Part shown: piece after piece, positions 1 to 19,000 of the stretch
Position numbering within the stretch: position 1 is the first letter of the stretch
Layout of the letters: the number at the start of each line of letters is the position of its first letter
Assembly (NCBI GenBank): GCA_913060565.1
Contig: CAJXRU010000031.1
Location: forward strand, 1-36,116
Length of the DNA: 36,116 nucleotides
Direction of reading: 5' to 3'
Source of the DNA: an uncultured Gammaproteobacteria bacterium
Lineage (GTDB): Bacteria; Pseudomonadota; Gammaproteobacteria; Enterobacterales; Psychrobiaceae
The notes under the pieces: generated by a model
What the model was told of the DNA's origin: nothing
The model's input: only the letters and a program-made list of their open reading frames with translations
Databases searched by the model: none
Made by a program: the position numbers and the translations under genes

Positions 1-322
1 ATTGAATATCGTCTCGTGTGATTTTTCCAAGCCAAGCATCTAATTTGTCAAACGCCGCATCAGCAAAACAACAGAAGTGTTTTAATCCAACAAAGAGACT
101 ATATTTGGGTACTCGACTATCAACGCGATTAGCATTATTGAAAAACTTTCGAGACGCGTTTCTTGCACTCGCTCCTGTAAGATGCATAAAAGCGATTACA
201 GGAAACATCACCACCCACAGAATTCGTCGGCCAAATAATCGATAAACCCACAATAAGATTTTGATGCCAATAACAGTCCCGCGCTCTTCAGTATTGGACC
301 AATGTTGATTCAATTTACTCAT
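1..322 (-). CDS. LpxL-like lysophospholipid acyltransferase of the aryl-polyene cluster (partial, 3' end outside window)
   Basis: Open frame on the minus strand from an ATG at 322 to the window edge, 107 codons without a stop. The N-terminus reads HWSNTEERGTVIGIKIL, followed by a hydrophobic segment (LLWVYRLF, ILWVVMFPVIAFM). This is the usual start of the LpxL/HtrB-like acyltransferases found in aryl-polyene clusters. The family moves an acyl chain onto a lipid or sugar acceptor at the inner membrane. The catalytic HX4D motif would lie beyond the window. Its ATG overlaps the end of the glycosyltransferase gene by 8 bases, so it is the next gene of the same operon. The family call rests on the N-terminal part only. 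Confidence 0.75.
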   Translation of the reverse strand, partial: MSKLNQHWSNTEERGTVIGIKILLWVYRLFGRRILWVVMFPVIAFMHLTGASARNASRKFFNNANRVDSRVPKYSLFVGLKHFCCFADAAFDKLDAWLGKITRDDIQ

Positions 323-1055
323 CTTTCTTAAATTTTCTAACGATTAACGATGGAATTCGAATCAACATTCCAAAACAAAGTCTTGTATGCATCCAAGATA
401 TTCGAACATTGTCTTCAAAGGCTTTAAAGTGGGAAATTCCCGATTCAGGATAAATCACTTTGGTATCAAAAAATTGAGTGACAGTACCACGCCAAAAGAG
501 CCGTACAAGCACTTCAATATCAAAGTCCATGCGTTTCCCCAAGTTAACATCATTAATTAAAGCAACACTAGGAACAAGAGGATAGATACGATAACCACAC
601 ATGGTATCTTTGAGCTTAAATGATAATGTTTCTATAACGACCCAGAAATGAGTGATATATCTTGCCCAATACCGATGCTTGGGTACAGATTCATCATAAA
701 TTGGCTTGCCACTAATAACATCATTAGGGTGATCTTTTGACAAGGCCAACAGCTTATTTATATCATCAAGGCAATGCTGCCCGTCAGCATCTATTTGAAT
801 CGCGTAATCAAACCCTTGAGAATGAGCAAACAAGAGACCTGTTTGCACAGCGCCACCTTTTCCTTGGTTGGTCTCATGATGCAATAACGTTAGTGATGAG
901 TGTTGTTCTGATAATGCAATTAATTGTGTTGTTATCGATGAATCGCTTGCATCATTTACCATGATAATAGGAAGCTCAAAAGCATTGAGAGACTCTATAA
1001 GCGACTCAACGTAATCTGCATGATTATAATTGGGAATCACAAAACAATATTTCAA
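315..1055 (-). CDS. Family 2 glycosyltransferase (aryl-polyene cluster)
   Basis: 246 aa GT-A fold enzyme, dolichyl-phosphate-mannose-synthase-like. VIPNYNHADYVESLIESL stands at the N-terminus, then QGKGGAVQTGL, then the metal/nucleotide-sugar DXD motif in QIDADGQH. It probably transfers a sugar from a nucleotide-sugar or polyprenyl donor onto the aryl-polyene lipid or its anchor; the substrate cannot be read from the sequence. The start is a TTG at 1053-1055 directly abutting the TAA of the dehydratase gene (TAATTG). A later ATG would remove the essential VIPNYNH strand, so the rare start is well supported and implies translational coupling. The 3' end overlaps the next acyltransferase by 8 bases. 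Confidence 0.88.
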   Translation of the reverse strand: MKYCFVIPNYNHADYVESLIESLNAFELPIIMVNDASDSSITTQLIALSEQHSSLTLLHHETNQGKGGAVQTGLLFAHSQGFDYAIQIDADGQHCLDDINKLLALSKDHPNDVISGKPIYDESVPKHRYWARYITHFWVVIETLSFKLKDTMCGYRIYPLVPSVALINDVNLGKRMDFDIEVLVRLFWRGTVTQFFDTKVIYPESGISHFKAFEDNVRISWMHTRLCFGMLIRIPSLIVRKFKKDE

Positions 1056-1418
1056 TTAAGACTCCTCAAGGACAATACGTCCAGACGAGTGTACGCCCTT
1101 CTCAGATTCATATTTAAACGTAAACTTATGGTCAGACTTTTTCACAAGCATCAAATTAACACGATCTTCAGGTTGAATAACAACTTGAAACTTTAACACT
1201 TCTACATTTTTCACTGCAGCCTGACAAAGATCCAAATGCTTAAATCCAAAGTGAATAGCCCAGTCTAATTGAACGACACCAGCAAGGATCGGAGCTTGTG
1301 GAAAGTGACCAGTAAAATAATCGATTTGCGAACCAACATGTAATGCCACTGCAACAGTATCTAACTCCGTTGAAGACACGTTTATTTCTTTAGGTAAAAG
1401 GCAATCTAACTCAGACAA
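1056..1418 (-). CDS. Hotdog-fold 3-hydroxyacyl-ACP dehydratase (ApeI/FabZ-like)
   Basis: 120 aa single hotdog domain. The helix motif GHFPQAPILAGVVQLDW (His38 as catalytic base) matches the FabA/FabZ pattern GHFPxxPxxPGV. In aryl-polyene assembly such enzymes dehydrate the 3-hydroxyacyl-ACP formed in each elongation round, building the conjugated chain. The start overlaps the end of the AMP-ligase gene by 8 bases, and the stop abuts the glycosyltransferase start. The short length agrees with the stand-alone dehydratases of these clusters. The ketosynthase, ketoreductase and second dehydratase are not in view and would be expected beyond base 1. Confidence 0.85.
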   Translation of the reverse strand: MSELDCLLPKEINVSSTELDTVAVALHVGSQIDYFTGHFPQAPILAGVVQLDWAIHFGFKHLDLCQAAVKNVEVLKFQVVIQPEDRVNLMLVKKSDHKFTFKYESEKGVHSSGRIVLEES

Positions 1419-2760
1419 ACAACTTCTCCAGTTCCATTAAAGGCAGTTTGCCCTGTGAATTATAAGGTAGCTCTTCAACATACCGCCATTTTCGCGGCAA
1501 AGTAATCAATTCAAAGTGAACCAGCAAGTGCTTTTTAATACATTGATTAATATGCCGTTTACCGGCGTTTACCAGCATTATTTCACCGTCATCACTTAGT
1601 TGAACAATCGCGGCGAGAATTTGCCTCTCTCCAGTTAAAACAATCAGTTTTATGTCTTTTACCCAATGATGCTCAAGAGATTTTTTTTCGATCTGGCTTA
1701 AATTAACACGTTTTTCTTCTAACTTAACGGTTCTATCTACGCGCCCTAATAGCTTAAGCTTCCCATCTACGATCTCTCCTCGATCATCTAACATCATGGA
1801 AGACTGATGAATAAACGGCGAACAGAGTTGTAAACGACTCCTATCGTTAGTAGAAATACACGAAACTTCAGGGAAAAAATTCCAATAAGTCTCTTCTTTA
1901 CTTTCAATTTGACGATAGGCTATGCCACCAGTTTCTGTACTGCCATAAACCTGTACAATTCCTGTTCCAAATTGTTTATAAAGTGACAAAGCATCAGCAT
2001 CTTGCAATGGCCCGCCTGAACTAAAAATGGTTGAAAAATGCGTTTTAAATTCAGACAATACGTTATCTTCAGACAACCTACTCAGAAAGGCTGGGCTAGA
2101 GATTAATACCACATCATTGTTTGTTTTCAATACGTCCACAATATGCTCTGGATAATCAAACGTACTAAAAATAGAACCCCCTAATTGCAAAGGTAGCAAT
2201 GCTCTAAATAACAAACCGTAAATATGCTGATGTGAGACTGTCGCTATAAAAGTAGATTGAGGTTGACAGATAAATAACGATTTCAGCACATCCAATTCAT
2301 TATTAAGTAACTCCCAATCTTTTATGATTGCTTTCGCATGGCTTGAAGATCCTGAGGTGTAAAATATTACTCGACCATTAGTTGGCCAACTCAATACTTC
2401 ATTAACCTGTGGAGCATTTGTGCAATTGTCTAATGATACCAAGCGTGAAATCACAATAGAGCCCGCATAAAAATCAACAGTATCGGCCAATTCAGTTAGT
2501 GTTCCCTGCTGATCATTTGGCGGAAGTATCACTGTATGCCCGTCTTGTCCTAGCGCAATAAAACGAACTAAGAATGCAAAAATATCATTATCATATAATA
2601 AAACTCTGGCAACCTTTCCTTGGGGTACTAAGTGCCTAATTTTATTTCTGAAAGCAGCGACCTGTTCCATAAAATCATCAGTAGAGCGTGTTGTATCACC
2701 GCTAAACAAATTCATATTACTTGGTATCAGTGGCGACATTTTATTTATTTCTTTTAACAT
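1411..2760 (-). CDS. AMP-dependent acyl/aryl-ACP ligase (ApeH-like)
   Basis: 449 aa adenylate-forming enzyme. The phosphate loop YTSGSSSHAK is at about 134-143, the YGSTETGG motif at 272-279, the hinge motif LGRVDRTVKLEEKRVNLSQIEK follows, and the catalytic Lys438 lies in NSQGKLP. In aryl-polyene clusters this enzyme activates the aromatic starter acid (4-hydroxybenzoate type) and loads it on an ACP. Substrate preference here is inferred from context only. The first ATG (2760) overlaps the membrane-protein gene by 20 bases. A second in-frame ATG at 2739, preceded by AAAGAA, is an alternative start giving 442 aa. Confidence 0.88.
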   Translation of the reverse strand: MLKEINKMSPLIPSNMNLFSGDTTRSTDDFMEQVAAFRNKIRHLVPQGKVARVLLYDNDIFAFLVRFIALGQDGHTVILPPNDQQGTLTELADTVDFYAGSIVISRLVSLDNCTNAPQVNEVLSWPTNGRVIFYTSGSSSHAKAIIKDWELLNNELDVLKSLFICQPQSTFIATVSHQHIYGLLFRALLPLQLGGSIFSTFDYPEHIVDVLKTNNDVVLISSPAFLSRLSEDNVLSEFKTHFSTIFSSGGPLQDADALSLYKQFGTGIVQVYGSTETGGIAYRQIESKEETYWNFFPEVSCISTNDRSRLQLCSPFIHQSSMMLDDRGEIVDGKLKLLGRVDRTVKLEEKRVNLSQIEKKSLEHHWVKDIKLIVLTGERQILAAIVQLSDDGEIMLVNAGKRHINQCIKKHLLVHFELITLPRKWRYVEELPYNSQGKLPLMELEKLFV

Positions 2761-3298
2761 AACACCGGACTAAATATTCAATACCAAACAGTAGGCCCAT
2801 TGCCATATACGATAGAAGCCCATTGTATAAAGTCCATGCATCTTTGGACATATATAACGCAGTATAAAGAGCAATAGACCCATTTAAGACAAAGAAAATA
2901 CACCAGAAAAAAGTAACTTTTTCAGTATATTCAACTCCTTGAGCATCTAAATTTGGTTCACGTAGTCGAGCAAAACCTTCAATTATGCTTGGCTTTTTAT
3001 ACAATGAATAACCAAAAGCTCCCAGCATGGCAGCGTTTATTGCAACGGGATAAAGCAAGATACCTAAGTCATTATTAAACGCTGTTGAAAAAAGCAAAAC
3101 GAGAGCACCAAGTCCTGTAGCAATTGGCAGCCATGGCATTTTGCTTACTAATGACTTTGAAAGAAATAAGCGAATAGAAATAATACAGAGCAAAAAAATA
3201 GCCAACCATCTCGGCTCAACATATTTAAGTCCTATAAAAACAACAAATGGATATGCTAGAAGTAGCATACCCATCAATAAATTCACTATTACTTTCAT
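2741..3298 (-). CDS. COG4648-like membrane protein of aryl-polyene clusters (ApeG-like)
   Basis: 185 aa, strongly hydrophobic, with about six predicted membrane segments (for example LLMGMLLLAYPFVVFIGL at the start and LLSYMAMGLLFGIEYLVRCYV at the end). Proteins of this size and profile sit between the ACPs and the AMP-ligase in aryl-polyene clusters. Their biochemical role is not established; a transport or membrane-assembly function is a guess. The start overlaps the ACP stop by one base (TAATG), which argues for coupled translation. Confidence 0.75.
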   Translation of the reverse strand: MKVIVNLLMGMLLLAYPFVVFIGLKYVEPRWLAIFLLCIISIRLFLSKSLVSKMPWLPIATGLGALVLLFSTAFNNDLGILLYPVAINAAMLGAFGYSLYKKPSIIEGFARLREPNLDAQGVEYTEKVTFFWCIFFVLNGSIALYTALYMSKDAWTLYNGLLSYMAMGLLFGIEYLVRCYVKRNK

Positions 3299-3546
3299 TA
3301 TTTAAGAAGCAAAGCCTCTAGTTCATCAACAACATCACCGACTGTTCTTACTCGCTTAAAGGCATCTGGATTAATTTTTTTGCCCGTTAATTCACTTAAC
3401 TTAACCACCAGATCTACCGCATCAATACTGTCTAATTCTAATTCTTCATACAAATGAGTTTCTAGCTTTACATCGGCGGCATCAATTTCAAAATCTTCGA
3501 CTAAAATTTCAGTCAATGTGTTTAACAGTTCTTCTCTTGATTTCAT
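3298..3546 (-). CDS. Acyl carrier protein 2 (ApeF-like)
   Basis: 82 aa acyl carrier protein from the ATG at 3546. The 4'-phosphopantetheine attachment motif is ELDSIDAVDL with Ser40. It carries the starter or growing polyene chain for the ketosynthase and dehydratase partners. A GTG at 3567 would add seven residues and overlap the upstream ACP gene. The ATG at 3546 is preferred because a Shine-Dalgarno-like GAAGGT sits just upstream of it. It is one of two adjacent, clearly different ACPs, the standard arrangement in this cluster type. Confidence 0.9.
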   Translation of the reverse strand: MKSREELLNTLTEILVEDFEIDAADVKLETHLYEELELDSIDAVDLVVKLSELTGKKINPDAFKRVRTVGDVVDELEALLLK

Positions 3547-3550
3547 TTCG

Positions 3551-3811
3551 TTACTTACCTTCAACACTTTCTATGAATGCACATAGACTATTTACTGATG
3601 AAAAATGTTGTTTTGTATCTTCTGAATTTGCGTCTAATTTGATATTAAAACGCTTCTTAATCGCAAGGCCTAGCTCCAAAGCATCAATGCTATCCAACCC
3701 TAAACCGTCGACAAATAATGCGTCGTCATTGTTAATATCGTCAACATTTATATCTTCGAGATCAAGCGACTCAATTATTAGTGTTTTTATTTCAAGTGCT
3801 AAATTACTCAT
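3551..3811 (-). CDS. Acyl carrier protein 1 (ApeE-like)
   Basis: 86 aa acyl carrier protein with phosphopantetheine motif LGLDSIDALELG (Ser41). It is acidic and helical as expected. The ATG overlaps the TGA of the acyltransferase gene (ATGA), and the second ACP follows directly. The two ACPs differ markedly, so they probably serve different partners, for example starter loading and elongation. That split is inference from the family. Confidence 0.9.
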   Translation of the reverse strand: MSNLALEIKTLIIESLDLEDINVDDINNDDALFVDGLGLDSIDALELGLAIKKRFNIKLDANSEDTKQHFSSVNSLCAFIESVEGK

Positions 3812-4566
3812 ATTTTCTCTAATTCCTCGTTAAAATGCTGCTCCAATGCAGCCGTAAACTGGCGACTCTTAAGACTCATCGCGACGTTATTCATACAGTC
3901 AAACTCAACTTCCTTACAGGGAACTTGAAGACTAAATTCAAATCGCCTTTCTGGTATTTGGTACCAATTTTCCGATTTGGTTAACGTCGTTGGTGTCACC
4001 TTTATAAGCACCGTAGTCACCGATGCCTTACAGCGTAGTGCAATATTTGCAGCACCACGTTGAAACTTCATTGCCTTACCTGGAGTGGTCCGTGTTCCTT
4101 CGGGAAATATAATTAAATTATTGCCATTTGCCAACGATTTACCACAATCTTCTATTAGTTCATCAGTATTATCATTACTAATATAGCCTGTTGTATTCAA
4201 CACCCCTCTCATAAACGGATTGCTAAATAAATTAGCTTTTACGACACAATCAGCATTTGGAATGATAGAAATCAGTACAACCACATCAATCAATGATGGA
4301 TGATTGGCCATAATTATATGTCCTTGCAATTTGTCTAGTTTATCTGAATCTTTTATATAAAAACGCGAGACACCGCTCTCTTGCAGCAGAAAAACAAAAA
4401 ACTTAAAAAGACGATGAACTAATTTTCGAGACTTACTTTTTCTTATTTCTGTGTCTCGATACAAAATCCATAATAAAGGAGATGCCACTACAGGCACTAT
4501 CAATCCCCCGAGACCAAATACGAAGAAACAAAAACCAGTGGCGAACAATCTCCAGTAATAATTCAT
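3808..4566 (-). CDS. 1-acyl-glycerol-3-phosphate acyltransferase-like protein (ApeD-like)
   Basis: 252 aa PlsC-type acyltransferase. An N-terminal membrane segment (GFCFFVFGLGGLIVPVVASP) is followed by the catalytic HX4D motif in ANHPSLIDVV (His89, Asp94) and the acceptor-binding FPEGTRT motif (Glu156). The family acylates lipid acceptors at the inner membrane. Here it likely helps anchor or build the aryl-polyene lipid, as the presence of two acyltransferases in the cluster suggests. It overlaps both neighbours by four bases (ATGA). Confidence 0.87.
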   Translation of the reverse strand: MNYYWRLFATGFCFFVFGLGGLIVPVVASPLLWILYRDTEIRKSKSRKLVHRLFKFFVFLLQESGVSRFYIKDSDKLDKLQGHIIMANHPSLIDVVVLISIIPNADCVVKANLFSNPFMRGVLNTTGYISNDNTDELIEDCGKSLANGNNLIIFPEGTRTTPGKAMKFQRGAANIALRCKASVTTVLIKVTPTTLTKSENWYQIPERRFEFSLQVPCKEVEFDCMNNVAMSLKSRQFTAALEQHFNEELEKI

Positions 4567-5273
4567 CGCAGGATCTCAAGGCGCCAATCATTCTGACTAC
4601 CTGGTATTGTTATTTTTGCGGCGCCATTAAATAGCGCATCAATGAAAGCCAACGACTGAGGAACATTAAGCTCTTTGTGACTTCTTTCGTGTTGTTGCTC
4701 AATATTTAATGTAACAGCAGTTCCATCATCTTTACTCATCACGAATGCAACTGCATGATCTATCTGCTGCTCATCTTGAAAACATAAATAGTCTAGCGGC
4801 AATGCCTGATCGCAATGAACGACTAAGACTTTGTCACAAGCGCCGCTATTAATTCTTGCGTAGGCATCAACCAATGCCATCAAAAAACTATCGCGGCCAG
4901 CAGAGACAGTGTTTGATGCGCAACGATTACCTGTAAAAATACTAAGTAATCCAGCAGACGCATTATGTACCGACATGCTAAAAGCTGTTGGCGAAAGGGA
5001 GTCATTTTTTGCTAAAGAATCTAATAGCGCAGAAGTTTTATGCAGGTCACCATGTCTCGACGAGAAAACAACGGCGATTTCACCATCATTTCGTCCAGCT
5101 TCATAAGCACAATGCAGTGCCATTTTGTTAAATGCACTTAATCTCCTTTTTTGCATAGGCTTTAGCCATTGCAAATCAGGCAATTGATTTTTATCTAGCA
5201 CGCATACACCGTTATTTTCAGCAGTATTTGGTTCAGCACGAAGATAATTAAGATGTTTAACAGCAAATAACAT
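4563..5273 (-). CDS. Ketosynthase-like protein without active-site Cys (chain-length-factor type, Ketoacyl-synt_2)
   Basis: 236 aa, about the length of an N-terminal ketosynthase half and far shorter than a full ketosynthase (about 400 aa). SVHNASAGLLSIFTGN (101-116) matches the thiolase-fold core. At the nucleophile position, where catalytic enzymes carry Cys, it reads NTVSAGRDSF (Ser124-Ala-Gly), and the C-terminal half with the two His residues is absent. It is therefore expected to be non-catalytic and to pair with a full ketosynthase outside the window. It is the first gene of the minus-strand operon, with a promoter-like sequence about 60 bases upstream. Confidence 0.82.
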   Translation of the reverse strand: MLFAVKHLNYLRAEPNTAENNGVCVLDKNQLPDLQWLKPMQKRRLSAFNKMALHCAYEAGRNDGEIAVVFSSRHGDLHKTSALLDSLAKNDSLSPTAFSMSVHNASAGLLSIFTGNRCASNTVSAGRDSFLMALVDAYARINSGACDKVLVVHCDQALPLDYLCFQDEQQIDHAVAFVMSKDDGTAVTLNIEQQHERSHKELNVPQSLAFIDALFNGAAKITIPGSQNDWRLEILR

Positions 5274-7584: not shown

Positions 7585-9864
7585 TTACTCTACATCGATG
7601 GCAAAAACTGCCACGGGAATGTTTTGATCTGTTTGCTCAAACTCAAACACTAAACCATTAACATCAACTGGCGTCTCTAACGTTATTTTATTAACGGTTT
7701 GATGATTATCTTTTTGCTCAAACAAAACATTTCCAGCGTCATCGAGTACTTTGTAGTTCGCGACACAAAACGGAATGCGACTTTCGGGGTGTCCCATCAA
7801 TGTCGACTCTAATGGATGGTCAAAATCGGTATCAAAATGCAGCGTAATGGCAGAAACCTTCTGCGTTTGTGGCCATTTCATTGACAATAGTGGTGCTTTT
7901 TCATCGAGCGCAGCAATCCATGCGTTACTTGATAGCCAGGCACGCGTATAACCATTCACAAGGTTATCAACCTTAAAATCATCAATCGCAGGGCTGATTG
8001 TCATAGCAAGATTATGTCCCTCTGGACGTCTTGATGGGATCCAAAATTCGAATTCATCAATGCCATAATCACCATCAACAGCTTGCTTTCCGTTATTTGA
8101 AACGGCTTTGTTGGTACCATTAAAGGCCGACACAATTCCGCTCACTCGTTGTTGTGAATACTCTACTTCAATCGCGTCATTTTTCATGAAACAAATAAAG
8201 CCATATTGGTCAAATTCAGTCGCTTCATCAAACTGAATTTCAACCTGATGCTCGCCAACACCAAGTGGTGTTTCTATCTCCTGCAAAGTGACATTCGGCG
8301 TGTAGTTTTCGTGTTTGTCACTTACTCTTAATTGACTAATTAATGTGGTCTCAACTGTAACTTTTACATTGACGGTAATTGTGTAGTTTACACTGGCTTT
8401 CATCGGCAATAACTGCGCGGCAGAAATAGTTAACGGTTTGAATAGTTCATCATGGCTAAAGCTTGATAACGCCAGTTCACTACTGGCATTTAAGGTCGCT
8501 AATGACGCTAAGTTTGTCTTTTTATTCGTTGGTATGTGTGGAATAAAATGGCCAGTTTTGTTTAAATCATTTTGCAATTCACTAACTTTCTCTTCTTCGA
8601 GTAATGCTTGAGGTGCAAGCTGCTCTTTAATACATTTAGCTGCTGCGGCGCCGACCGCTTGACCGCCATGAGCCGATGTTGCCATTACGCGAGTCGAGCC
8701 AAACGCGATATGTGATGCACTAATAATACGCCCCGCCAGGAATAAATTATCAATCCCCCGACTAATAAAGCACCCTAATGGAATTTGATAAATACCTTTA
8801 CCGTGATATTGAAGACACGGACTTTCTTCGCTAAATACCCCTTCACTTGGGTGCAAATCTATTGCCCAACCACCAAAAGAAATCGCATCATATTGTGGGC
8901 GTTGTTCAACGATGTCTTTTTGTGTCAGCATTTTATGGCCGATAAAACGTCGACTTTCACGCTTACCCGGAATAGTCCCGACCCATTCAAGCGTGAGGTT
9001 ATCAACATCATCGAACTCGCCGCTGTTTTTAATGTGATCCCAGATGGTGTAAACCACAGACCACAATTCCCATTTGATATCTTCAGTGCCATAAATCGTG
9101 TCTGTTGTACCGCCATACTCTATCCACCATAGGCGCACTCCGTCTTCACCTTTATTGACTCGTCCTAAGCGCTCTTTAGAAATATTGGTATTTTTAGCGT
9201 AGTCCGGCAAGGTAAAATCAACGTGCTTGCCAGCGTCTTTACTATAGAAAAATAATGTATGACCTAGTAACTCGGTTTGCTCTTCTTTGGGCGCCATCTT
9301 TTCATCGAATTCTTGAGCAGATTCGGCGCCAATAACAAAGGGAGCTCCCGCCATAAATCCTAATACCCCATCTCCTGACGAGTCACAAAAAAGCGGGGAT
9401 TTAATATGATAATCAATCGATGTTTGTGAACAAAACGCGTTGACTGAACCAATTGAATTACCAGATGATTTGGTCGCGTTGTATACAGATGTATTGAGTA
9501 ACAGTGTGATATTTTTCTCAGCTTTGACCTTATCAAGCAAAATCGTGTCGAAGATAACCGCATTACCCTCTTTATTGCGATAAAGATTTTCTATTAACAG
9601 TTCATCAATAATGCCACCTTCACGTGACCATCGGTTATTGTTACCTAAATGAGATGTTGCCCCTAAAATCCACACGCGGATCTCACTTGAACCACAACCA
9701 CCTAGCACAGGGCGATCTTGTACTAAACATACCTTAATACCACTACGCGCCGCTTGGATGGCACTACAAACACCAGCCATACCGCCGCCAACAACAGTAA
9801 AGTCGGTGCTGATTTCAACTGATTTATTTTTACGACCATCTTGATCAAGTTCTACTCTTAACAT
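7585..9864 (-). CDS. FAD-dependent oxidoreductase (FAD_oxidored family) with C-terminal beta-sandwich region
   Basis: 759 aa from the ATG at 9864. A GTG 18 bases upstream is rejected because it lies inside the GAGGAG ribosome site. The Rossmann FAD motif VVGGGMAGVCSA is at about 24-35, followed by RPVLGGCGSSEIRVWI, DSSGDGVLGFMAG, a central RESRRFIGH motif and the second FAD-binding stretch LFLAGRIISASHIAFGSTR. Together these define the PF12831-type family. Residues beyond about 430 are a separate beta-rich part; its last 130 residues resemble an F5/8C or galactose-binding-like sandwich. There is no signal peptide, so it is cytoplasmic. It starts four bases after the symporter gene in an operon with galTKE, so it probably acts on the imported sugar or a derivative. 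Reaction and substrate are unknown. Confidence 0.82.
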   Translation of the reverse strand: MLRVELDQDGRKNKSVEISTDFTVVGGGMAGVCSAIQAARSGIKVCLVQDRPVLGGCGSSEIRVWILGATSHLGNNNRWSREGGIIDELLIENLYRNKEGNAVIFDTILLDKVKAEKNITLLLNTSVYNATKSSGNSIGSVNAFCSQTSIDYHIKSPLFCDSSGDGVLGFMAGAPFVIGAESAQEFDEKMAPKEEQTELLGHTLFFYSKDAGKHVDFTLPDYAKNTNISKERLGRVNKGEDGVRLWWIEYGGTTDTIYGTEDIKWELWSVVYTIWDHIKNSGEFDDVDNLTLEWVGTIPGKRESRRFIGHKMLTQKDIVEQRPQYDAISFGGWAIDLHPSEGVFSEESPCLQYHGKGIYQIPLGCFISRGIDNLFLAGRIISASHIAFGSTRVMATSAHGGQAVGAAAAKCIKEQLAPQALLEEEKVSELQNDLNKTGHFIPHIPTNKKTNLASLATLNASSELALSSFSHDELFKPLTISAAQLLPMKASVNYTITVNVKVTVETTLISQLRVSDKHENYTPNVTLQEIETPLGVGEHQVEIQFDEATEFDQYGFICFMKNDAIEVEYSQQRVSGIVSAFNGTNKAVSNNGKQAVDGDYGIDEFEFWIPSRRPEGHNLAMTISPAIDDFKVDNLVNGYTRAWLSSNAWIAALDEKAPLLSMKWPQTQKVSAITLHFDTDFDHPLESTLMGHPESRIPFCVANYKVLDDAGNVLFEQKDNHQTVNKITLETPVDVNGLVFEFEQTDQNIPVAVFAIDVE

Positions 9865-9868
9865 GCTA

Positions 9869-11557
9869 TTACTGCTCCTCACGATGGTTTACATTGGATT
9901 TAGAAAGATTGCGTTGTTGAAATAATTTGATAGGGTTAAGCACAATTAATGCGGGAATGGCGATGATAGCGCCCACCACGGCCGTGATGGTTTGCCCTTT
10001 GTCGGCAAGCATTCCTAACACCACGATTAACAACCCGATACCTGAGATCCCCGTAAAAATAACATTGCGACCAAATTGAGACTCTTGATCGTCAGGTACT
10101 TCTAATGACGCTTGCGGTGTGTCGTCGACGGTTAAATTTTCGCTGCTAGCTTGCGACGTCGGTTTTAAGATAAGCTCAAACATAACTAACAGAACAACCG
10201 GCGTCATCACTCCCATTAACATCTCTTCACTACGTGATAACTCAAGCCCGAATAGGCTTGGCGCCACAAATTTGAAGAACAGATTAATCCCTAAACTAAC
10301 GAAAGTCGTTGTTACAATAGAAAAGCCCGTTTGGCGCTTTGAAAACAAGGTCCAGATTGGCGGTAAATAAATGGGAGCGCCAGTAAGCGCCGCAACCGTT
10401 AACACCACCTCAACAATCCCACCCATACTCTGAATAGATAACGCGATACCAATGGCACATAATCCAAAAACGACTGTTGAAACACGCGCTATTGTCATTA
10501 AATGAGTTTGGGTTGTATTCGGTTTTAAGCGCTTATAGATATCATTAGTAATGACTCCCGATGCAATGTTTAGTGTGGTATTTACCGAACTTGCTGTCGC
10601 AAATACCATGGCACCAAACACCAGCCCGAGTAAGCCAGATGGCAAAACTAACTTACTAATAAGTAAGTACGCACTTTCGGTTTCACCGCCTGATAGTTCA
10701 GGTACTAATACGCGGTATATCATTGGCGGGATCATCCATACCAATGGCGCAATCAGATATAACCCACCAAATAAATAAGCAACTTTTTTGGCATTAATTG
10801 GACTAGAGACGCTGGTATAACGTTGCACATATGCCCAGTTTCCACCAATAAATACCGTGTTATAAATAAAGAATGCAAACAGAAAAGTTAAATTATATTC
10901 ATCATTTGAAAGCGCTGTAAAACCGTCAGGTAACTTATCAAGGAACGTACTCACACCGCCGACTTCACCAAAGGCCATTGGTATCACTAAAATAACTGCC
11001 GCCGTTAATACAATAAACTGCAACACATCGGTCACTAATACCGCCCATAAACCGCCAAGCGTGGTATACGCAATAATGAGCAAGCCGAGAATAATGATTG
11101 CTGTTTCTAGTTGTAATCCGGTGGAGACTTCTATAATTTTGCCCACTGGATATAAAAATGCACCGGCACTAAATAAACTAATAAAAAGGAAGATAACGGT
11201 GAATGTTTTTTGGGTGGTAACGCCCAATCGCTCTTTAATATATTCAGCAACCGTCATGGCACCAGTGCGATTCCATGCTGGTGCGATAACAAACGCAATC
11301 ACAAATCCTGATAGTGCCATGGTCATTTGAATCGACACCGATACTAGCCCATCGGCATAAGCAATCGCCCCCCACACCACGAAGGTTCCAACTGAGAAAA
11401 AACTCATAAAAAGCGACAACCCACTTACCCACCATGGCACCGCGCCACCTGCTGCGAAAAATGATTTCATGCTCTTGCCATTTCTCGCCAGCGTCATGCC
11501 TAGCGCGATAATGAACACCGTGAATATCAGCGCAACGTAAAAATCAAAACTATTCAA
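9869..11557 (-). CDS. Sodium:solute symporter (SSS family), probable galactose/galactoside importer
   Basis: 562 aa inner-membrane protein with about 13-14 membrane helices. SSS features include an N-terminal FFAAGGAVPWWVSGLSLF segment, the conserved TTLGGLWAVLVTDVLQF helix and ASSVNTTLNIASGVITNDIY. The family couples Na+ entry to uptake of sugars, amino acids or organic acids. The location after galE in a gal operon makes galactose or a small galactoside the likely cargo (inference). The start is a TTG at 11557 with a well placed AGAGGT; the next ATG would remove most of the first helix. The 78-base gap to galE holds a short hairpin (11573-11590). Confidence 0.87.
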   Translation of the reverse strand: MNSFDFYVALIFTVFIIALGMTLARNGKSMKSFFAAGGAVPWWVSGLSLFMSFFSVGTFVVWGAIAYADGLVSVSIQMTMALSGFVIAFVIAPAWNRTGAMTVAEYIKERLGVTTQKTFTVIFLFISLFSAGAFLYPVGKIIEVSTGLQLETAIIILGLLIIAYTTLGGLWAVLVTDVLQFIVLTAAVILVIPMAFGEVGGVSTFLDKLPDGFTALSNDEYNLTFLFAFFIYNTVFIGGNWAYVQRYTSVSSPINAKKVAYLFGGLYLIAPLVWMIPPMIYRVLVPELSGGETESAYLLISKLVLPSGLLGLVFGAMVFATASSVNTTLNIASGVITNDIYKRLKPNTTQTHLMTIARVSTVVFGLCAIGIALSIQSMGGIVEVVLTVAALTGAPIYLPPIWTLFSKRQTGFSIVTTTFVSLGINLFFKFVAPSLFGLELSRSEEMLMGVMTPVVLLVMFELILKPTSQASSENLTVDDTPQASLEVPDDQESQFGRNVIFTGISGIGLLIVVLGMLADKGQTITAVVGAIIAIPALIVLNPIKLFQQRNLSKSNVNHREEQ

Positions 11558-11635: not shown

Positions 11636-12640
11636 CTAATAACCTTGAGGATTGTTCGTTTGCCAGCGCCATGTATCTATTACCATGTCACTGAGAGATA
11701 ACTTTGTTTCCCAATCAAGTAATTGGTTCGCTTTATCACAGGCGGCATAGCAAATTTCCACATCGCCTTGGCGTCTTGGCACAAATATCGTGGGCACCTT
11801 AACATCATTTAATTTACTAAAAGCATCAACGACTTCTAACACCGAATAGCCTTTGCCAGAGCCAAGATTAAGGGTGGTAAATTGATTACTCTGGTGTAAA
11901 GCTTCGAGCGCTTTTACATGCCCCTGTGCTAAATCAACAACATGAATATAATCGCGAACGCCAGTGCCATCGACGGTATTGTAATCATTACCAAACACTC
12001 TTAATTCCGGATGAGTACCAACTGCAACCTGAGAGATAAACGGTAATAAATTATTCGGAATGCCCGTTGGGTTCTCACCAATCATGCCTGATTGATGCGC
12101 GCCAACCGGATTGAAGTAGCGCAGCATGACCGCCGTAAAATCATCTTGTGCCGCCGATAGATCTTTGCACATTTGCTCAACCATTAACTTAGTTTGTCCA
12201 TAAGGACTTTGCGGTTGTAATTGAGAGGTTTCGTCAATAGGCACAATTTTAGCTTGACCATACACAGTGGCTGATGAACTGAAAATTAGTGTTTTTACAC
12301 CGTGTTTCTTCATCATACGAAGTAGATTCAAACTCCCCTGCACATTATGTTGATAATAACTGAGCGGCTCTTTAGTCGACTCACCAACCGCTTTTAATCC
12401 GGCAAAATGAATCACCGCATCAAACTGGTGTTCTTCAAACACTTGTGCCAATTCAACATCACAAATATCAACTTCATAACACGTAATCTTCTTATTGGTT
12501 AACGCCTCAACCCTTTCTACCGCTTTAGGGCTACTGTTAGAGAAATTATCAACTACCACGACGTCGTGTTGACTCTCTAATAATTCAACACAGGTGTGTG
12601 AACCAATATATCCAGCGCCACCAGTGACTAAAATTTTCAT
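11636..12640 (-). CDS. galE: UDP-glucose 4-epimerase
   Basis: 334 aa short-chain dehydrogenase-type epimerase interconverting UDP-galactose and UDP-glucose in the Leloir pathway. The NAD-binding motif VTGGAGYIGSHT is at 5-16, Ser123/124 in FSSSATVYG, and the catalytic YxxxK pair is Tyr147/Lys151 in SPYGQTK. Length and C-terminus (QGDVEICYAAC, DWETK) match E. coli GalE-type enzymes. It overlaps galK by four bases, so the two are translationally coupled. The cluster has no galM homologue. Confidence 0.96.
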   Translation of the reverse strand: MKILVTGGAGYIGSHTCVELLESQHDVVVVDNFSNSSPKAVERVEALTNKKITCYEVDICDVELAQVFEEHQFDAVIHFAGLKAVGESTKEPLSYYQHNVQGSLNLLRMMKKHGVKTLIFSSSATVYGQAKIVPIDETSQLQPQSPYGQTKLMVEQMCKDLSAAQDDFTAVMLRYFNPVGAHQSGMIGENPTGIPNNLLPFISQVAVGTHPELRVFGNDYNTVDGTGVRDYIHVVDLAQGHVKALEALHQSNQFTTLNLGSGKGYSVLEVVDAFSKLNDVKVPTIFVPRRQGDVEICYAACDKANQLLDWETKLSLSDMVIDTWRWQTNNPQGY

Positions 12641-13815
12641 ACCAGCTCCTTATTAGCTGTCGAGATAGCTGTTTTCAGAAATGGACCATCGGTGGCATAA
12701 CATTCAAAAACTGTTGCGTTTAACCCCGTATGATCAATGTATTGCTCGCGCACTAGCGAAGTAACATCATCTAGCATCGCTTTCGGTACAAGACACACAA
12801 CGCAGCCGCCAAAGCCGCCGCCTGTCATACGAACGCCACCGTTATCTCCAATTTTCCGGTGGATAGTGTCCACCAGAAAATCGATTTGCGGTGTTGAAAC
12901 ATTAAAATCATCTTTCAATGACAAATGAGATTGGCGCATAAGCTCACTTAAATGTGCAACATCATTATTTTTTAACGCCTGATGCGCCGCTACTGTGCGC
13001 TCATTCTCGCTAATAACATGTAGTGCGCGGCGATATAATACAGGCGATAGTTTTGACTGATGTTGTGCTAATTTTTTCATATCAACTGTGCGTAGTGATG
13101 ATTCACCACAAATGGCTGCCGCTTCGTCACATTGCGCTCTGCGTAAGTTGTATTCGCTATCCACTAATCCCCGCTTAACGCCGGAATCAATGACAACAAT
13201 CGCCAATTGTTCAGGGATTGATGTGTAACTGTATTGAAGGTTTTGACAATCTAGCAACATTGCGTTGTCAGCTTGCCCTAGTGCTGAAATCAGCTGATCC
13301 ATGACGCCGCAATTACAACCGACAAATTCGTTTTCTGCTTTTTGAGCTAACAGTGCCGCATTAATACCGCTAATCTCAATATCATATAGCTGACAAAAGC
13401 TATGGATTACCGCCACTTCTAATGAAGCCGATGAACTTAGTCCCGCGCCTTGTGGGATGTTGCCTGCTATCACTAAATCAGCGCCACTGAATTCCGCGCC
13501 TGACGCCAACAAATATTTAAGAGCACCTTTGACATAATTACTCCATGTTTCAACTTCATCACTCACTATATTTTGTAAATCAAAGGTATAAATTGAATCA
13601 GCAATATCGCTAGCAATCATTCGTACTGTTTTATCGGCGCGAGGTGAAGCCGCAATATATGTTCCAAAGTTAATTGCTGCTGGCAGCACAAAACCATCGT
13701 TGTAATCGGTGTGATCGCCAATTAAATTCACTCGTCCCGGCGCCTGTGTTATTTGCGCTGGCACAGCGGAAAAATGTTTCATAAAAGTCGCTGCTACATC
13801 AGTTGCAATAGTCAT
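12637..13815 (-). CDS. galK: Galactokinase
   Basis: 392 aa GHMP-family kinase phosphorylating alpha-D-galactose at C1 with ATP. The galactokinase signature PGRVNLIGDHTDYNDGFVLP is at about 26-45. The ATP-binding GHMP motif is in GNIPQGAGLSSSASLEVA, and the C-terminal glycine-rich MTGGGFGGCVVCLVP is present. The start overlaps the galT stop by one base (TAATG), with GGAG upstream, and the end overlaps galE. Full length and intact. Confidence 0.96.
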   Translation of the reverse strand: MTIATDVAATFMKHFSAVPAQITQAPGRVNLIGDHTDYNDGFVLPAAINFGTYIAASPRADKTVRMIASDIADSIYTFDLQNIVSDEVETWSNYVKGALKYLLASGAEFSGADLVIAGNIPQGAGLSSSASLEVAVIHSFCQLYDIEISGINAALLAQKAENEFVGCNCGVMDQLISALGQADNAMLLDCQNLQYSYTSIPEQLAIVVIDSGVKRGLVDSEYNLRRAQCDEAAAICGESSLRTVDMKKLAQHQSKLSPVLYRRALHVISENERTVAAHQALKNNDVAHLSELMRQSHLSLKDDFNVSTPQIDFLVDTIHRKIGDNGGVRMTGGGFGGCVVCLVPKAMLDDVTSLVREQYIDHTGLNATVFECYATDGPFLKTAISTANKELV

Positions 13816-14861
13816 TATAATTGCTCCTGTTTATAGTGTGTTGTTGGCACATCACGCAGCATTTGCGCTGCCTGCTCTGGCGTTAAGTCACGCTGTGATT
13901 CAGCCATTAACTCGTAACCCACCATAAACTTTCTAACACTGGCGGAGCGTAGCAGCGGCGGGAAAAAATGTGCATGCAGCGTCCAATGCGCATTGTCTTC
14001 ATTATTGTATGGCGCGCCATGCCAGCCCATCGAATAAGGAAAAGAACATTGGAACAAGTTGTCGTATTTAACGGTGATTTGCGACAACATATCCGCTAAA
14101 TCACGTTGCTGTTGTTCATTGAGTTGCGGTAATTGTTGCACTGAAAATCGCGGTAATAATAATGCCTCAAACGGCCACGCCGCCCAATAAGGTACAACCA
14201 CCATCCAATGTTCATTACTACACACCACGCGTTCACCAGCAACCAATTCTCGTTCTGCATAATCTGTTAACAATGGCGATTGGTACTGTGAGAAATAATT
14301 GGCGAGATTGCTTTGTTTTTTCTGCGCCAACGTAGGTAAATGGTTTTGCGCCCATACTTGACCATGAGGATGAGGATTAGAACACCCCATCATACTGCCC
14401 TTATTCTCAAACACTTGAACCCAGTCATAAGTGGCGCCCAGCTCTTCACTTTGCTGCTGCCAACATTTAATGACATGAGCAATATCTTGTGGCGTCATTT
14501 CTGCGAGCGTTTTACTGTGATCAGGCGAAAAGCAGATCACTCGGCTTTCGCCTTGCTCTGTTTGAAACCTAAATAAGGGATCGTCACTTTGCGCCATTGG
14601 CGTATCTGAAGCTAGTGCAGCAAAGTCATTCTTAAAAACGTAAGTGTGAGTATAACTGTCGTTCACATCGCCAGAAATTCGTGTATTTCCAGCACATAGG
14701 AAACAGCTGTCATCATAACTTGCAGCCTGCGACTCTTCTGCGCTCTCAGTTTGCCCCTGCCAAGGTCTTTTACTGCGATGAGGTGAAACTAAAACCCACT
14801 CTCCCGTTAACGCGTTATATCGTCGATGCGGGTGCTCTGTGGTATCAAACTCTAAAGACAT
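13815..14861 (-). CDS. galT: Galactose-1-phosphate uridylyltransferase
   Basis: 348 aa HIT-superfamily enzyme exchanging UMP between UDP-glucose and galactose-1-phosphate. The active-site [10 protein letters not shown] holds the nucleophile His166, the same number as in E. coli GalT. Cys53 and Cys56 of CFLCAGN match the zinc ligands. The N-terminal [25 protein letters not shown] is the conserved family start. First gene of the gal operon: the ATG at 14861 has a good GGAG and a promoter with a palindrome about 30 bases upstream, facing the divergent IclR regulator. Confidence 0.96.
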
Positions 14862-14886: not shown

Positions 14887-14901
14887 TATCTATTATAGAT
14901 A
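14887..14901. promoter_or_regulatory. Palindrome over the gal promoter -10, candidate IclR operator
   Basis: TATCTATTATAGATA is a perfect 15-base palindrome around its central base. It overlaps the likely galT -10 element. The inner 10-mer TCTATTATAG recurs at 22377-22386 and, inverted, at 22541-22550, both upstream of the TonB receptor gene. That placement fits repressor binding by the adjacent IclR protein. The AT-rich context and overlap with a -10 box make chance possible. Confidence 0.45.
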
Positions 14902-14919
14902 TAGTTAAATTCGTGTAAA
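14892..14919 (-). promoter_or_regulatory. Candidate sigma-70 promoter of the gal operon
   Basis: On the minus strand a -35-like TTTACA (14919-14914, five of six consensus bases) is 16 bases from a perfect TATAAT (14897-14892). The leader to the galT ATG at 14861 would be about 25 bases. The rest of the 287-base divergent region to the iclR start shows only AT-rich sequence and the second palindrome at 15036-15052. Confidence 0.55.
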
Positions 14920-15035
14920 GATCTAAATTCACTATTAGTGACAATATTTAATTTATTAAATAGTCTTTACGCAGGAAACAACGAGCTTTTTCGATTAATA
15001 ATGCACAAATAATAGAAAGTTAATTTTGTTTCTTT

Positions 15036-15052
15036 AATAGATATATACTATT
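15036..15052. promoter_or_regulatory. Inverted repeat upstream of the IclR gene, possible autoregulatory site
   Basis: AATAG-N7-CTATT lies about 100 bases before the regulator ATG and overlaps weak promoter-like sequence (TTGTTT at 15026, TATACT at 15044). The half-site AATAG/CTATT is shared with the gal-promoter palindrome and with an AAAAATAG-N9-CTATTTTT repeat at 22435-22459. Confidence 0.35.
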
Positions 15053-15148
15053 CTGTGAGCCAAGTTTTGATAGTAGAAGAAGCGCTACTGTTAATTTAAT
15101 GTGTTTGAGATTAAAATAGTCTCATTCAATTTTAAGGATAATTTGTCG

Positions 15149-15925
15149 ATGAGTTTATCTATGGCTTCAATTGTTAATGACAAAAAAATAAATAAATACG
15201 GCAGTCAGCTCAATCTTAGCCTCATTCATGGCATAGAGACGTTGCAAGGAATAGCATCAAGTGATCATCCCGTCGGTAGCCGAGAGTTATCGCGCATGTT
15301 GGATTTAGATATTACCAAAGTAAATCGCATGCTTAGAACCTTGGCTTATTTAGGATTGGTTAGACAGACACCTGATAGAAAATATACGTCAGGCCCTGGC
15401 ATGCACGTATTGGCGGCCCAAAGTTTGTACGCCACTGGTTATATTCAAAATGCAATCAAACCACTAGAGTCGCTAAAAGAGTTGGGGCTGATTGTTGCGA
15501 TGGGCGTATTGTGGCAAGACAAGGTTACTTACCTTTACCACGCATTACCCGGTATGGATTCAGTCGATGCGATGGGACGTCTTAGTTATTACCCAGCGAC
15601 CTTAAGTGGCATTGGCTTATCATTATTATCTGAGCTTGATGATGATGAAATTGCACATCTCTATGAAGGTAAAACCATTGAGGGCTTTGACGATGACTAC
15701 AGTGCCCTACTCAACAAAATAAATGAAATAAGAACATTGGGTTACTCTCGTGTTGAAACGACCAGTCCCACCTTAAAATCGAGTAAAACTTACACCCTTG
15801 CGATTAATGTTGGTCAGCCTGTTTACAGTGCTATTGCATTATCAGGCTGGTTACCTGAGGGTTCAACGGATGAACTAGTTGCCGTGTTACAAGAGAAAGC
15901 ATTAGAGATTGTTAGTAACGATTAG
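15149..15925 (+). CDS. IclR-family transcriptional regulator, probable gal/galactoside regulator
   Basis: 258 aa from the ATG at 15149. This start is chosen because AAGGA sits ten bases upstream and the 16 codons before it lack a ribosome site. The N-terminal winged helix-turn-helix (about 20-85) includes GSRELSRMLDLDITKVNRMLRTLAYLGLV. It is followed by an IclR effector-binding domain (ARS: GMGVLWQDKVTYLYHALPG, SGIGLSLLSELDDDEI, GYSRVET). It diverges from galT and lies between the gal operon and the TonB/GH31 unit, so it most likely controls both in response to a sugar ligand. Whether it represses or activates cannot be read from the sequence. Confidence 0.88.
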   Translation: MSLSMASIVNDKKINKYGSQLNLSLIHGIETLQGIASSDHPVGSRELSRMLDLDITKVNRMLRTLAYLGLVRQTPDRKYTSGPGMHVLAAQSLYATGYIQNAIKPLESLKELGLIVAMGVLWQDKVTYLYHALPGMDSVDAMGRLSYYPATLSGIGLSLLSELDDDEIAHLYEGKTIEGFDDDYSALLNKINEIRTLGYSRVETTSPTLKSSKTYTLAINVGQPVYSAIALSGWLPEGSTDELVAVLQEKALEIVSND

Positions 15926-16047: not shown

Positions 16048-19000
16048 TTAATAAACCTCTATTTCATAAAGTTTGATCCAATCATTACTTTGCAGTCTGA
16101 TTTTTGATGTTTCTACAACATCAAATACCTTATCAACAGCCGATTGCGTATTATTAGTCTCTTGTACTAAATCAATCCATGCCGTGCCATCCCAATACGT
16201 CAAACGATAATCTTCTAAAGGCAAATTATAGCCATTCCAGCCTGTCCAAAATTTAATTTGCGAGACCTGATGAGCTGCGCCTAAATCAACTTCGACGAAG
16301 TGAGGGCCATCAAATTCATTCGATATCCAACGACTGCTATTACTCTCTTTATCGCCGTCTACAGCATTTTCGCTGGCATAACTCGCGTTGTAATCACTGC
16401 TTGAGGTAACGTTTTTCCCCAAGGCAATATTCTGTTGTGTGCCAAATACTTCAACTTCATAAATTTTTGCCCATGAAGTGGTTGTTAGGCGGACCTTAGT
16501 CGTCTTTACACTATCAAACTGCTCTGAAACTTCAGCCGACGAATTATTGGCGTTTTCTTTAATTGTTAACCACTGTGCACCATCCCAATATGCCAACGTA
16601 TAGTTTTCTAACGGACTGTTATAGCCATTCCATCCCGTCCAAAACTTAATGCTATCTACGTTGTAAACACTAGGTAAAGCAATTTCCAGCCAATGACTCT
16701 CGCCGTTATCTTGCGATATCCAACGACTGCTGTTTGATGAATTATCCCCATCCACTGCGTTTTGCGCAGTGTAGGAAGCGTTATAATCATCACTTGAAAT
16801 AGCTGTTGTATTTTCAATCTTAGCCGCCGCTTCACTGAAAATAGCAATCTCATAGAGCTTGATCCAATCGTTGGACGATAATCTTATTTTCGACGTAAAA
16901 ACCGCTGCGAACTCCTCAGTTATAGCACTACTAGTATTTGAAGTTTTACTAACAATAGATTGCCATTCACTGCCATTCCAATATGACAAAGTATAGCTAC
17001 CTAGTGCGCCACTACCTTGAAATCCCGTTGAAAACTTGACCTCATTAACCTTCATTGCACTTTCTAAATCAACTTCAATGTAATGTAACGAAGAATCATT
17101 AGCTGACATCCAGCGACTGCTATCACTATTTTCATCACCATCAACGGCATTATTTCCGACGTAAGCATCGGAGTAGATTGAATCAACAGTCACAGGTTTA
17201 CCCAAGGCAACATTAACCGCTTTCTCAGTTAACGAGCCCACGTTAGGGCCACCAGCATTTACCTCTGTACCGCCACCTGAAACGCGATAATTATTGCCGG
17301 CAACCAGAGTGAAATCAATGCCTCCGCGTGTTGCAACAGACACAACATCAGTAATGGTTGCACCCGTTGTTAAATTGGTCACGACTAATTGTGAAATATC
17401 CCATCCCGTATTTTCAAGCGTTATGGTAGACACAACATCACTACCACCTTCTTGAGTTTCAAAGTGGCGATATTCATAAGATACGCTAGCAACATCATTT
17501 GGTTTAATTGGCCACACTTGTGCCGTCAGATGTGCCGCATTCTTGTGAATTACAACGCCTTTACCACCGATGAATACTGGCATTCTGGTCCCAGACTGAT
17601 CGTAATCAGCTAATATTCCCGGTCCTTGATAGGCGATGCTTGTATTGCTATCAATCCAATAACCTGTGGGTAAATAGACATCTCGTAGCCCGCTGCCGTT
17701 ACTTGAATTAAACACGGGTGCCGCCAGCATCGACTCATCAATAAGCCATTGCCACATACTGCTGTTATCTAAATTGTAGGTCTCGCTATCTGCTGGAAAA
17801 GCAATTGGCATTGGTGTTGCGGTATATGGATACCCCGTTTTATATGCCTTTAGCGCCGCACTATAGATATAAGGGCGATACTTTTCGTGCCAATCTGCTG
17901 CTGCTTTTATATTAGCGGCAGTGCTTAATGACCAAGGATTTGCACCAAATGACATACTAGCGGTTAGCGCTGCAAGCTTAGCGTGACGTTCCATATAGGT
18001 CGCATTTGATCCCTGATGATTACCAACGATATCAGTGTAAACATTCGGAGCGCCGCTGGCGGCATAAGAAAGAACTAACTGCGGGATCCGAGCTTGCTGA
18101 CCACTGGTATCATTTAAACGCTGAATACTTCCCGGACTACTAACATAAGCATTTCGAGCCATCACATAATCACCCCGCTCGTGCAGCGCAACCATTGGCG
18201 CGTTCCAGGCTCCAGGATGATAAATACCAGAGGTTAACATTGAGTCTTCTTTCCAGCCATCAACGCCCCAGAGAGCCGTTTTATCGCGATACCATTGAAC
18301 AGCAGCTTCGTTGCCTGCATCTAATAACTCAAAGTCTGTGTCCCACTGTGGAAAGATATTTGATGCACTTTCAAAATTAGAACCATCAGACTTTTTCGCA
18401 AAATAATTATGACTATTAGCCTGTGCGTGCTCAGGTGGTTCAACTAGCGGATCATAACAAGAGCCTTGACCACCATCAGTACTGCCACCAGAGAAATCAT
18501 TTGAGCCTTTACATTCGGTGAAGTTAGTACGTAAACCAAACATGATCTTAGCGCCTTTGCTTCGCACTGAATCGATAATATCTGGTATGCCATCGCCGTT
18601 AGCATCAGGGAATTTAGTTAGATTAAAGCGACCAAAGCTCGTTGTTGTGCCGCCATCTTCCCAAAATCCAGAGCCAATAACAGCCCAACTTAATGGGTAG
18701 TCGTAATTATCAACAAAGTTGGTAATGCTTGCACCGACAGTACTCGCATCGGTAGCATACTTTTGAAATGGCCACGCCTCCCAACCAATACCAAACATGC
18801 CATAAAGCGGTTTAACATCAGCATATCCTGCGGTTTGCTTAGCTAATGAGAACGACTGATAAATGTCTTTTGTCGAGCCAAAGAAATAATAGAAATGTTT
18901 ATTGGTGTTAACGTTATGGGTGCCCATCTCAGTGGCTGTATCATTGAGCGTAACTTTGTGGGGTACCGTAGAATTTTCTTCTGAGAGATGACGCTCGCCA

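Follow-up and report, generated by a model that had tools for sequence, protein, structure and literature searches.

A recurrent pair of transporter and FAD enzyme joined to a dedicated set of galactose genes in a marine Psychrobiaceae bacterium

The 36,116-nt contig CAJXRU010000031.1 of a Psychrobiaceae bacterium described as marine (the window, meaning the whole stretch of DNA analysed) carries galT, galK and galE followed by genes for a transporter of the sodium/solute symporter (SSS) family and a flavin adenine dinucleotide (FAD) enzyme of the PF12831 type. The last two are a real, recurrent pair of transporter and FAD enzyme, here wired to galactose, and they probably open up a galactose compound that is unusable by the ordinary galactose enzymes. 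According to the favoured reading, to which a probability of roughly 0.55 is given, one regulon under IclR control lies in the window and serves a galactose-containing compound that is not free galactose; in it, the regulator and a palindrome read from the sequence would link galTKE–SSS–FAD to an exported glycoside hydrolase (GH) of family 31 and a TonB-dependent receptor. The FAD enzyme is strongly conserved across phyla and recurs with importers in glycan loci; among the matches listed in the literature searched, which covers few of the subscription journals, no description of its function was found.

The operon is transcribed from the minus strand in the order galT (13815–14861), galK (12637–13815), galE (11636–12640), SSS (9869–11557) and FAD (7585–9864), with short gaps or overlaps throughout. 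galT and galK overlap by 1 base, galK and galE by 4 bases, and gaps of 78 and 4 bases separate galE from the SSS gene and the latter from the FAD gene. The three genes of the Leloir pathway thus lie together, and the neighbours of the operon code for the IclR-type regulator, the exported GH31 with F5/8 modules and the TonB receptor. The first-pass annotation of the window had described a 759-residue PF12831 flavoprotein beginning four bases after an SSS symporter in a galT-galK-galE-SSS-FAD operon and lacking a signal peptide. Both points are borne out: the FAD gene starts with the ATG at 9864 and the SSS stop codon ends at 9869, and the Rossmann GGG motif, read from the sequence as residues 26–28, leaves no space for a signal peptide.

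The FAD gene runs from this ATG to the stop at 7585 (759 amino acids). An alternative GTG start at 9882 would give 765 amino acids, but the ATG is favoured by several homologues that align from it and by a GAGGAG stretch upstream of it. The PF12831 (FAD_oxidored) profile is matched over its whole length (1–416 of 416; E 9.4e-87, 292 bits against a cut-off of 27), spanning residues 27–440 in the 765-residue frame. Six Pfam families match the protein at E ≤0.01, with no GMC family among them, and so do 43 NCBIfam models, of which the best 25 are all far below their cut-offs and lie mostly at the dinucleotide-binding start. In an alignment of 33 of the 47 FAD proteins, 103 of the 429 positions of the FAD-binding catalytic part (residues 17–445; 8530–9816, minus strand) are invariant, gaps being ignored. 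The C-terminal region (residues 446–759; 7588–8529, minus strand) has 15 invariant positions in 314, many of them near residues 601–612 and 641–658 and in an acidic loop at 678–686 (7807–7833, minus strand) with invariant D678, D680, D682 and E686. The conserved C-terminal residues, this loop included, perhaps face the active site.

The AlphaFold model of the whole protein, built on the 33-sequence alignment, has a mean pLDDT of 82.7, with low values near residues 57–73 and 241–259, and its predicted FAD part resembles Thi4, flavocytochrome c3 and urocanate reductase (Z of about 16–17 over about 200–225 residues). The C-terminal 314 residues modelled alone, on 32 of these 33 sequences (that of locus L033 was left out), reached a pLDDT of 88.9. 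Structure prediction and fold search agree with the discoidin-like sandwich supposed earlier for this region, the best match being 4zz5, a CBM-type sandwich (Z 17.6, 122 residues, root-mean-square deviation 1.7). About 116–135 residues, taken from the two ends of this region together, align with CBM32-type modules, among them the galactose-bound 2v72 (Z 15.9), and from the strand order of the model residues ~474–575 are read as a second sandwich inserted in the first. DOC domains, which share the fold, also appear among the matches, and therefore the fold alone is no proof of sugar binding. No CBM32 or F5/8-type C match was obtained for the window protein in Pfam at E 0.01; a Rhizobium homologue matches PF00754 weakly (E 4e-5, below the cut-off).

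A scan of one genome per species (84,980 species) with six peptide patterns of the query, which finds close relatives, gave 46 FAD loci with enzymes 42–72% identical to the query. They are labelled as Bacteroidetes, Verrucomicrobia, planctomycete, Acidobacteria and Proteobacteria and are not independent, with for example four from Algoriphagus, four from Gilvimarinus and two from Didemnitutus. Neighbouring genes were assigned to families by phmmer comparison with representatives, most of which had been scanned with Pfam, and not by a Pfam scan of each protein. In 36 loci at least 2.5 kb was available on both sides of the FAD gene, and in 30 of these a transporter gene lies within 2.6 kb on the same strand (26 SSS, 4 of the major facilitator superfamily, MFS). 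Genes of the GH2, GH31, GH36, GH97, GH86 or GH117/43-like type are present in 25 of the 36, and 15 have a recognisable SusC, SusD or TonB receptor. As galactosidase- or agarase-type families are found in 25 of 36 loci, the homologues do not lie mostly outside sugar loci, an objection which the first-pass annotation had itself raised against its proposal.

Several loci illustrate the arrangement. galK and galT adjoin the FAD–SSS pair in a metagenome-assembled genome (MAG) of Saprospiraceae (L008), and galK adjoins an FAD–MFS pair in two Didemnitutus MAGs (L036 and L046); a weak galE-like match in L019 (98 bits) was left out of the counts. A single GH117-like gene separates SSS from FAD in the loci of Gilvimarinus and Catenovulum sediminis, the order in Gilvimarinus agarilyticus being GH16, SSS, GH117-like, FAD, sigma factor, FecR-LamG and GH86. 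On annotated plasmids of Catenovulum adriaticum and Persicobacter psychrovividus the SSS–FAD pair lies among GH16, GH2 and other sugar genes. More distant homologues follow ABC sugar permeases in Paenibacillus cellulositrophicus (37% identity) and Rhizobium sullae (34%), with no other recognised sugar enzyme directly next to the FAD gene, and a haloarchaeal homologue (38%) lies among sulfatases, ABC transporter genes and a beta-galactosidase. Directly behind an SSS, MFS or ABC sugar importer, the FAD gene occupies the place where a cytoplasmic glycosidase often sits.

It is worth adding some observations on these loci. In Enterobacter (L035) an open copy of the FAD gene is flanked by housekeeping-like genes. 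A query with this gene as DNA found no close relatives in E. coli. On a Lelliottia amnigena plasmid (L051, 10001–12101) the homologue beside an IclR relative looks broken, because the match is split into six pieces and several frames. A family of about 810–1180 amino acids (cluster 4; L004 12278–14866 and relatives in 10 further loci) occurs near FAD, often with GH97 and MFS genes; its members have weak GH88 or GH127 matches or none, and it is perhaps an undescribed glycosidase family. Another family (cluster 7; L004 17170–19464 and relatives in 7 further loci), near GH31 or FAD, combines an F5/8 module and a CelD_N match with a large unassigned remainder.

The symporter of the window, which has a TTG start, matches PF00474 (E 4.3e-40) and is 23% identical to a symporter encoded on contig C27 of the same genome. 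At the sugar site in transmembrane segments 1 and 2 it carries Phe53, Thr58 and Gln77 in place of Asn, Gln and Glu in the C27 protein, which we take to be the sugar-site residues of SGLT-type symporters; at the positions compared it is thus not of the SGLT type, although its PDB matches include SGLT structures. Alignment of the symporters from 19 of the 28 SSS loci with those of the window and C27 gave 32–74% identity of the 19 FAD-linked proteins to the window symporter, and Ser55, Thr58, Phe59 and Trp62 of its motif are common to all of them. Distances between the symporters correlate with those between the FAD enzymes (r 0.36, 20 loci, 1 of 5000 permutations, which ignore shared ancestry). 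In the sialic acid symporter SiaT the site consists of Thr58, Ser60, Thr63, Gln82 and Arg135 (PMC5931594). Measured against that list, the window symporter keeps the equivalents of Ser60, Thr63 and Gln82, has Phe for Thr58 and Ser for Arg135, and is not of the SiaT type. Across the 20 SSS compared, the equivalent of Arg135 is Ser, Thr, Gly, Leu or Tyr and never Arg. An acidic substrate, hinted at by the SiaT-like residues and by an MFS transporter type, was set back because this carboxylate-binding arginine is missing.

The galactose genes of the window are not the only ones of this bacterium. Contig C27 carries a full SSS–galE–galT–galK operon with no FAD enzyme, whose SGLT-like symporter has the ANISAEQ stretch and the ASYEW motif of the solved Vibrio sodium/galactose symporter 2xq2, so that the window set is not needed for plain galactose. 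The window galT is thus a second copy, 52% identical to that of C27. Towards the congener G280 the C27 operon shows 73% (galT), 81% (galE) and 66% (galK) identity. In the congener G279 the single galT is 53% identical to the C27 copy and 57% to the window copy, thus no nearer to the former, which leaves G280 as the one support for C27 as the old operon. Of nine genomes of the family, all belonging to a single genus, this one alone was found to have the FAD gene; the search detected it in none of the eight congeners, five of which are at least 90% complete and three below 90%. Likewise, it was found in one of 274 genomes sampled from the class, again this one, and the IclR gene in one of nine genomes of the genus. 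The galactose link is specific in this genome. A few kilobases from the canonical gal operon of C27 (L062, 695–2658) two frames read in translation like a class II aldolase and an enolase-superfamily enzyme, possibly a sugar-acid route.

The IclR-type gene (15101–15925, plus strand) is 82% identical to the one beside the SSS–FAD pair in Pseudocolwellia, where no gal genes lie in the stretch covered, and IclR relatives also adjoin FAD in Enterobacter L035 and Lelliottia L051. Its product matches PF09339 (29.4 bits, cut-off 22) and falls just under the cut-off for PF01614 (23.9 against 24). A perfect palindrome, TATCTATTATAGATA (14887–14901), is a putative IclR operator and overlaps the −10 hexamer of the best promoter-like site upstream of galT (14892–14919, minus strand; TTTACA-16-TATAAT, 11 of 12 bases), promoter-like sites overall being at chance level (43 against 40.9 expected). 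It was first noticed since 17 of 18 bases recur in the iclR–SSS gap of Pseudocolwellia, against 14–15 in six shuffles; the same perfect 15 bases stand there between iclR and SSS–FAD (L002, 8146–8160), and in the 4.35-Mb genome of the bacterium the site before galT is the sole perfect match.

As the 16-base operator pattern counts palindromes on both strands, a degenerate form was used for counting. With up to two mismatches it has six sites in the window against 1.6 expected, a number reached by one of 100 shuffles, and five of the six are in the galT–iclR gap (two) or before the receptor (three). Besides the perfect one, these are operator-like sites at 15029–15043 (one mismatch) and, with two mismatches each, at 22312–22326, 22375–22389 and 22538–22552. 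The middle one of the last three, AATCTATTATAGCAA, has the same letters as a site before FAD in Catenovulum adriaticum (L048, 14954–14968), a locus whose site count is within chance (13 of 100 shuffles). No degenerate match occurs in the galE–SSS gap, in keeping with one transcript.

The GH31 gene (16048–19659, minus strand) codes for an enzyme with three F5/8-type C modules and a signal peptide, as read from the sequence, and follows the gene of the TonB-dependent receptor (TIGR01782; 19688–22276, minus strand). After the receptor stop and ahead of the likely start of GH31 lies a terminator-like hairpin of 13 pairs with a T run (19647–19675, minus strand), perhaps an attenuator; terminator-like sites exceed chance (24 against 13.2). 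The enzyme is 31–36% identical to the GH31 proteins beside FAD in other loci, where the gene comes directly after FAD (L022, L025, L027) or after one gene (L004, L014, L016, L044). The best match of the L044 protein is the GH31 alpha-galactosidase 8j50 (E 6.2e-14), but a seven-sequence profile, made from the window enzyme and six of the seven loci with a GH31 of this branch, ranks other GH31 enzymes higher. The window GH31 has no PDB match at 1e-5 and no match in the Pseudocolwellia genome.

These components would form the following route. The TonB receptor would import an oligosaccharide, the exported GH31 would trim it, and either a galactoside or a modified form of galactose, small in any case, would enter the cytoplasm through the symporter. 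The FAD enzyme, as the one new and first cytoplasmic step, would then free galactose or a form accepted by galactokinase, with its discoidin-like region possibly helping to hold the sugar, and the dedicated GalK, GalT and GalE would take the product into central metabolism. The direction of flow, the place of the FAD enzyme as the first cytoplasmic step and its chemistry are all inferred from gene content; the FAD protein is the only new cytoplasmic enzyme of the operon and so would have to convert the import to a Leloir substrate in one step. The likeliest mechanism would be abstraction of a hydride from a ring hydroxyl by the flavin, which would loosen the bond to the partner group, the hydride perhaps being returned. 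A redox-neutral reaction is as possible as a net oxidation because some loci come from Prevotella, Paludibacter and Ereboglobus, presumably anaerobes. More speculatively, PF12831 with a discoidin-type tail might define a flavin-dependent class of glycoside-cleaving enzymes in which a hydride is taken, the partner leaves and the hydride is returned; if so, one soluble flavin enzyme would do the work of a cytoplasmic glycosidase on imported galactosides. The first-pass annotation had proposed an undescribed step in galactose use, acting on an imported galactose compound before the Leloir route. The sugar loci, the second Leloir set, the distinct SSS and the galK genes of L008, L036 and L046 speak for it, but the recurrent unit turns out to be transporter plus FAD and not FAD plus gal genes. 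It is a fair hypothesis, with odds somewhat above even, and is better worded as a step that acts on a galactose-containing compound.

A number of results weigh against this reading. The conserved linkage foreseen earlier holds for SSS (26 of 36 loci) and not for the Leloir genes: galK or galT was not seen in 43 of the 46 loci, some of them short stretches, and a galactokinase is present in three, two of one genus, so galactose is maybe not the product of the FAD enzyme everywhere. Neither SSS nor MFS stands in the tested place in six of the 36 loci (L010, L011, L024, L031, L035 and L047), and no galactosidase was recognised in L031, L034 and L047. Other sugars are suggested by the rhamnosidases, GH95, GH29 or GH43 of some loci, such as L041 with rhamnosidases and GH28 and L003 with GH43 and GH95, by GH95 and rhamnose genes some kilobases off in the Paenibacillus cellulositrophicus locus, and by a Paenibacillus urinalis relative (35%) next to Gfo/Idh/MocA and sugar-isomerase genes. 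The GH31 profile matches alpha-glucosidases, alpha-xylosidases and sulfoquinovosidase as well as alpha-galactosidases, and the PDB matches listed for the FAD enzyme cover mainly its dinucleotide-binding start, with no solved or tested member found. As for the palindrome, its pattern was derived from the window and L002 themselves, comparison with Enterobacter L035 gave none above shuffles, and with one mismatch it occurs at 18 places in the genome against 21 in a reversed control, because of which the weaker sites alone mean little.

A different division of labour is possible, if doubtful: GH31 would free galactose outside the cytoplasm for GalKTE, and the symporter and FAD enzyme would handle the other half of the glycoside, e.g. 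L-galactose or a methylated or acidic sugar. By a crude hydropathy test the glycosidases of these loci appear mostly exported (GH31 in 7 of 8 cases, GH2 in 15 of 15), hence galactose could be freed outside; however, the test also flags 20 of 57 FAD frames and is a rough guide only, its lack of specificity being due to the fact that it takes in the Rossmann strand and the part of the frame that precedes the start. GH95 and GH29, families that include L-galactosidases, lie near FAD in L003, L025 and L032, but beside FAD in Pseudocolwellia or Enterobacter no further catabolic enzyme for such a sugar was recognised. The MFS transporter of L017 matches the galactonate-type model TIGR00893, though below the cut-off (208 against 395), and the window symporter keeps the equivalents of Ser60, Thr63 and Gln82 of SiaT (PMC5931594), but at the place of the SiaT arginine that pairs with the carboxylate none of the 20 symporters compared has Arg.

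The FAD enzyme is unlikely to be a redox-neutral epimerase turning a rare hexose imported by the symporter into galactose or another Leloir substrate. A single cytoplasmic enzyme between importer and Leloir genes would suit it, and an epimerase would do without an electron acceptor, of which the operon encodes none; yet we know of no epimerase of this FAD fold, nor of a rare sugar common to agar-type, plant-type and soil loci. That the SSS–FAD pair joined the gal operon by chance, with a function unrelated to galactose, is very unlikely: few other loci (3 of 46) have gal genes close to FAD, and the Pseudocolwellia pair has the IclR gene and no gal genes in the stretch covered, but the palindrome before galT is the one before that pair, and plain galactose is served by a second Leloir set in the genome. 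Hardly credible is the oxidation of free galactose as a side or detoxifying route. The fold has relatives among dehydrogenases and reductases, but no gene of a galactonate pathway was recognised next to FAD in the window, where Leloir genes are present instead, and an SGLT-like symporter is encoded elsewhere in the genome.

The rest of the window contains, at 315–5273 on the minus strand, Glycosyltransferase 2, AMP-binding enzyme, acyltransferase and ketoacyl synthase genes, presumably part of an aryl-polyene-type cluster. At 28450–34223 there are genes for a chromate transporter, an ArsP-type permease and a SIMPL protein, then XdhC-type and 2Fe-2S genes; these last two presumably belong to a molybdenum hydroxylase cluster. 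No hits came from scanning the window with Rfam or for tRNA genes.

A regulon for a galactose-containing compound would make the window a clean handle on this family, since the genome already has one galactose set and the window adds another, a dedicated one with a regulator and a palindrome of its own. A single substrate identified for the importer would indicate what the whole family does, and the known routes of glycan breakdown could gain a flavin-dependent step. In the literature searched, PF12831 is named in one paper, which deals with Brucella flavoproteins. The nearest precedent is FAD-GO of Rhizobium sp. GIN611, a GMC/AA3 enzyme which oxidises the 3-OH of a sugar, after which the aglycone is lost (PMC4650693). 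It shows that a glycoside can be deglycosylated as a result of flavin-dependent oxidation at a ring hydroxyl, but it belongs to the GMC family, with a catalytic His493 and reoxidation by oxygen as proposed (PMC4650693), whereas the window protein has no GMC match.

Among glycan loci, those for agar and carrageenan share GH16, GH86, GH117, GH2, sulfatases and TonB or SusCD importers with many FAD loci (PMC5849685, PMC5943477, PMC5698469). For some carrageenan loci the legend of Fig. 9 in PMC5698469 lists a 'fumarate reductase/succinate dehydrogenase' gene, possibly but not necessarily one of the FAD family. The agar and carrageenan loci differ in that the main text of the agarose paper makes no mention of a symporter, FAD or oxidoreductase, and the described routes for 3,6-anhydrogalactose use enzymes other than the FAD family. 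The NAD-dependent redox glycosidases GH4 and GH109 would model a redox-neutral cleavage of glycosides, differing from the window enzyme in the use of NAD instead of FAD and in belonging to other families. Finally, the gal operon of contig C27 has the same composition of SSS, galE, galT and galK, but lacks the FAD enzyme and has a symporter of another type, 23% identical to that of the window.

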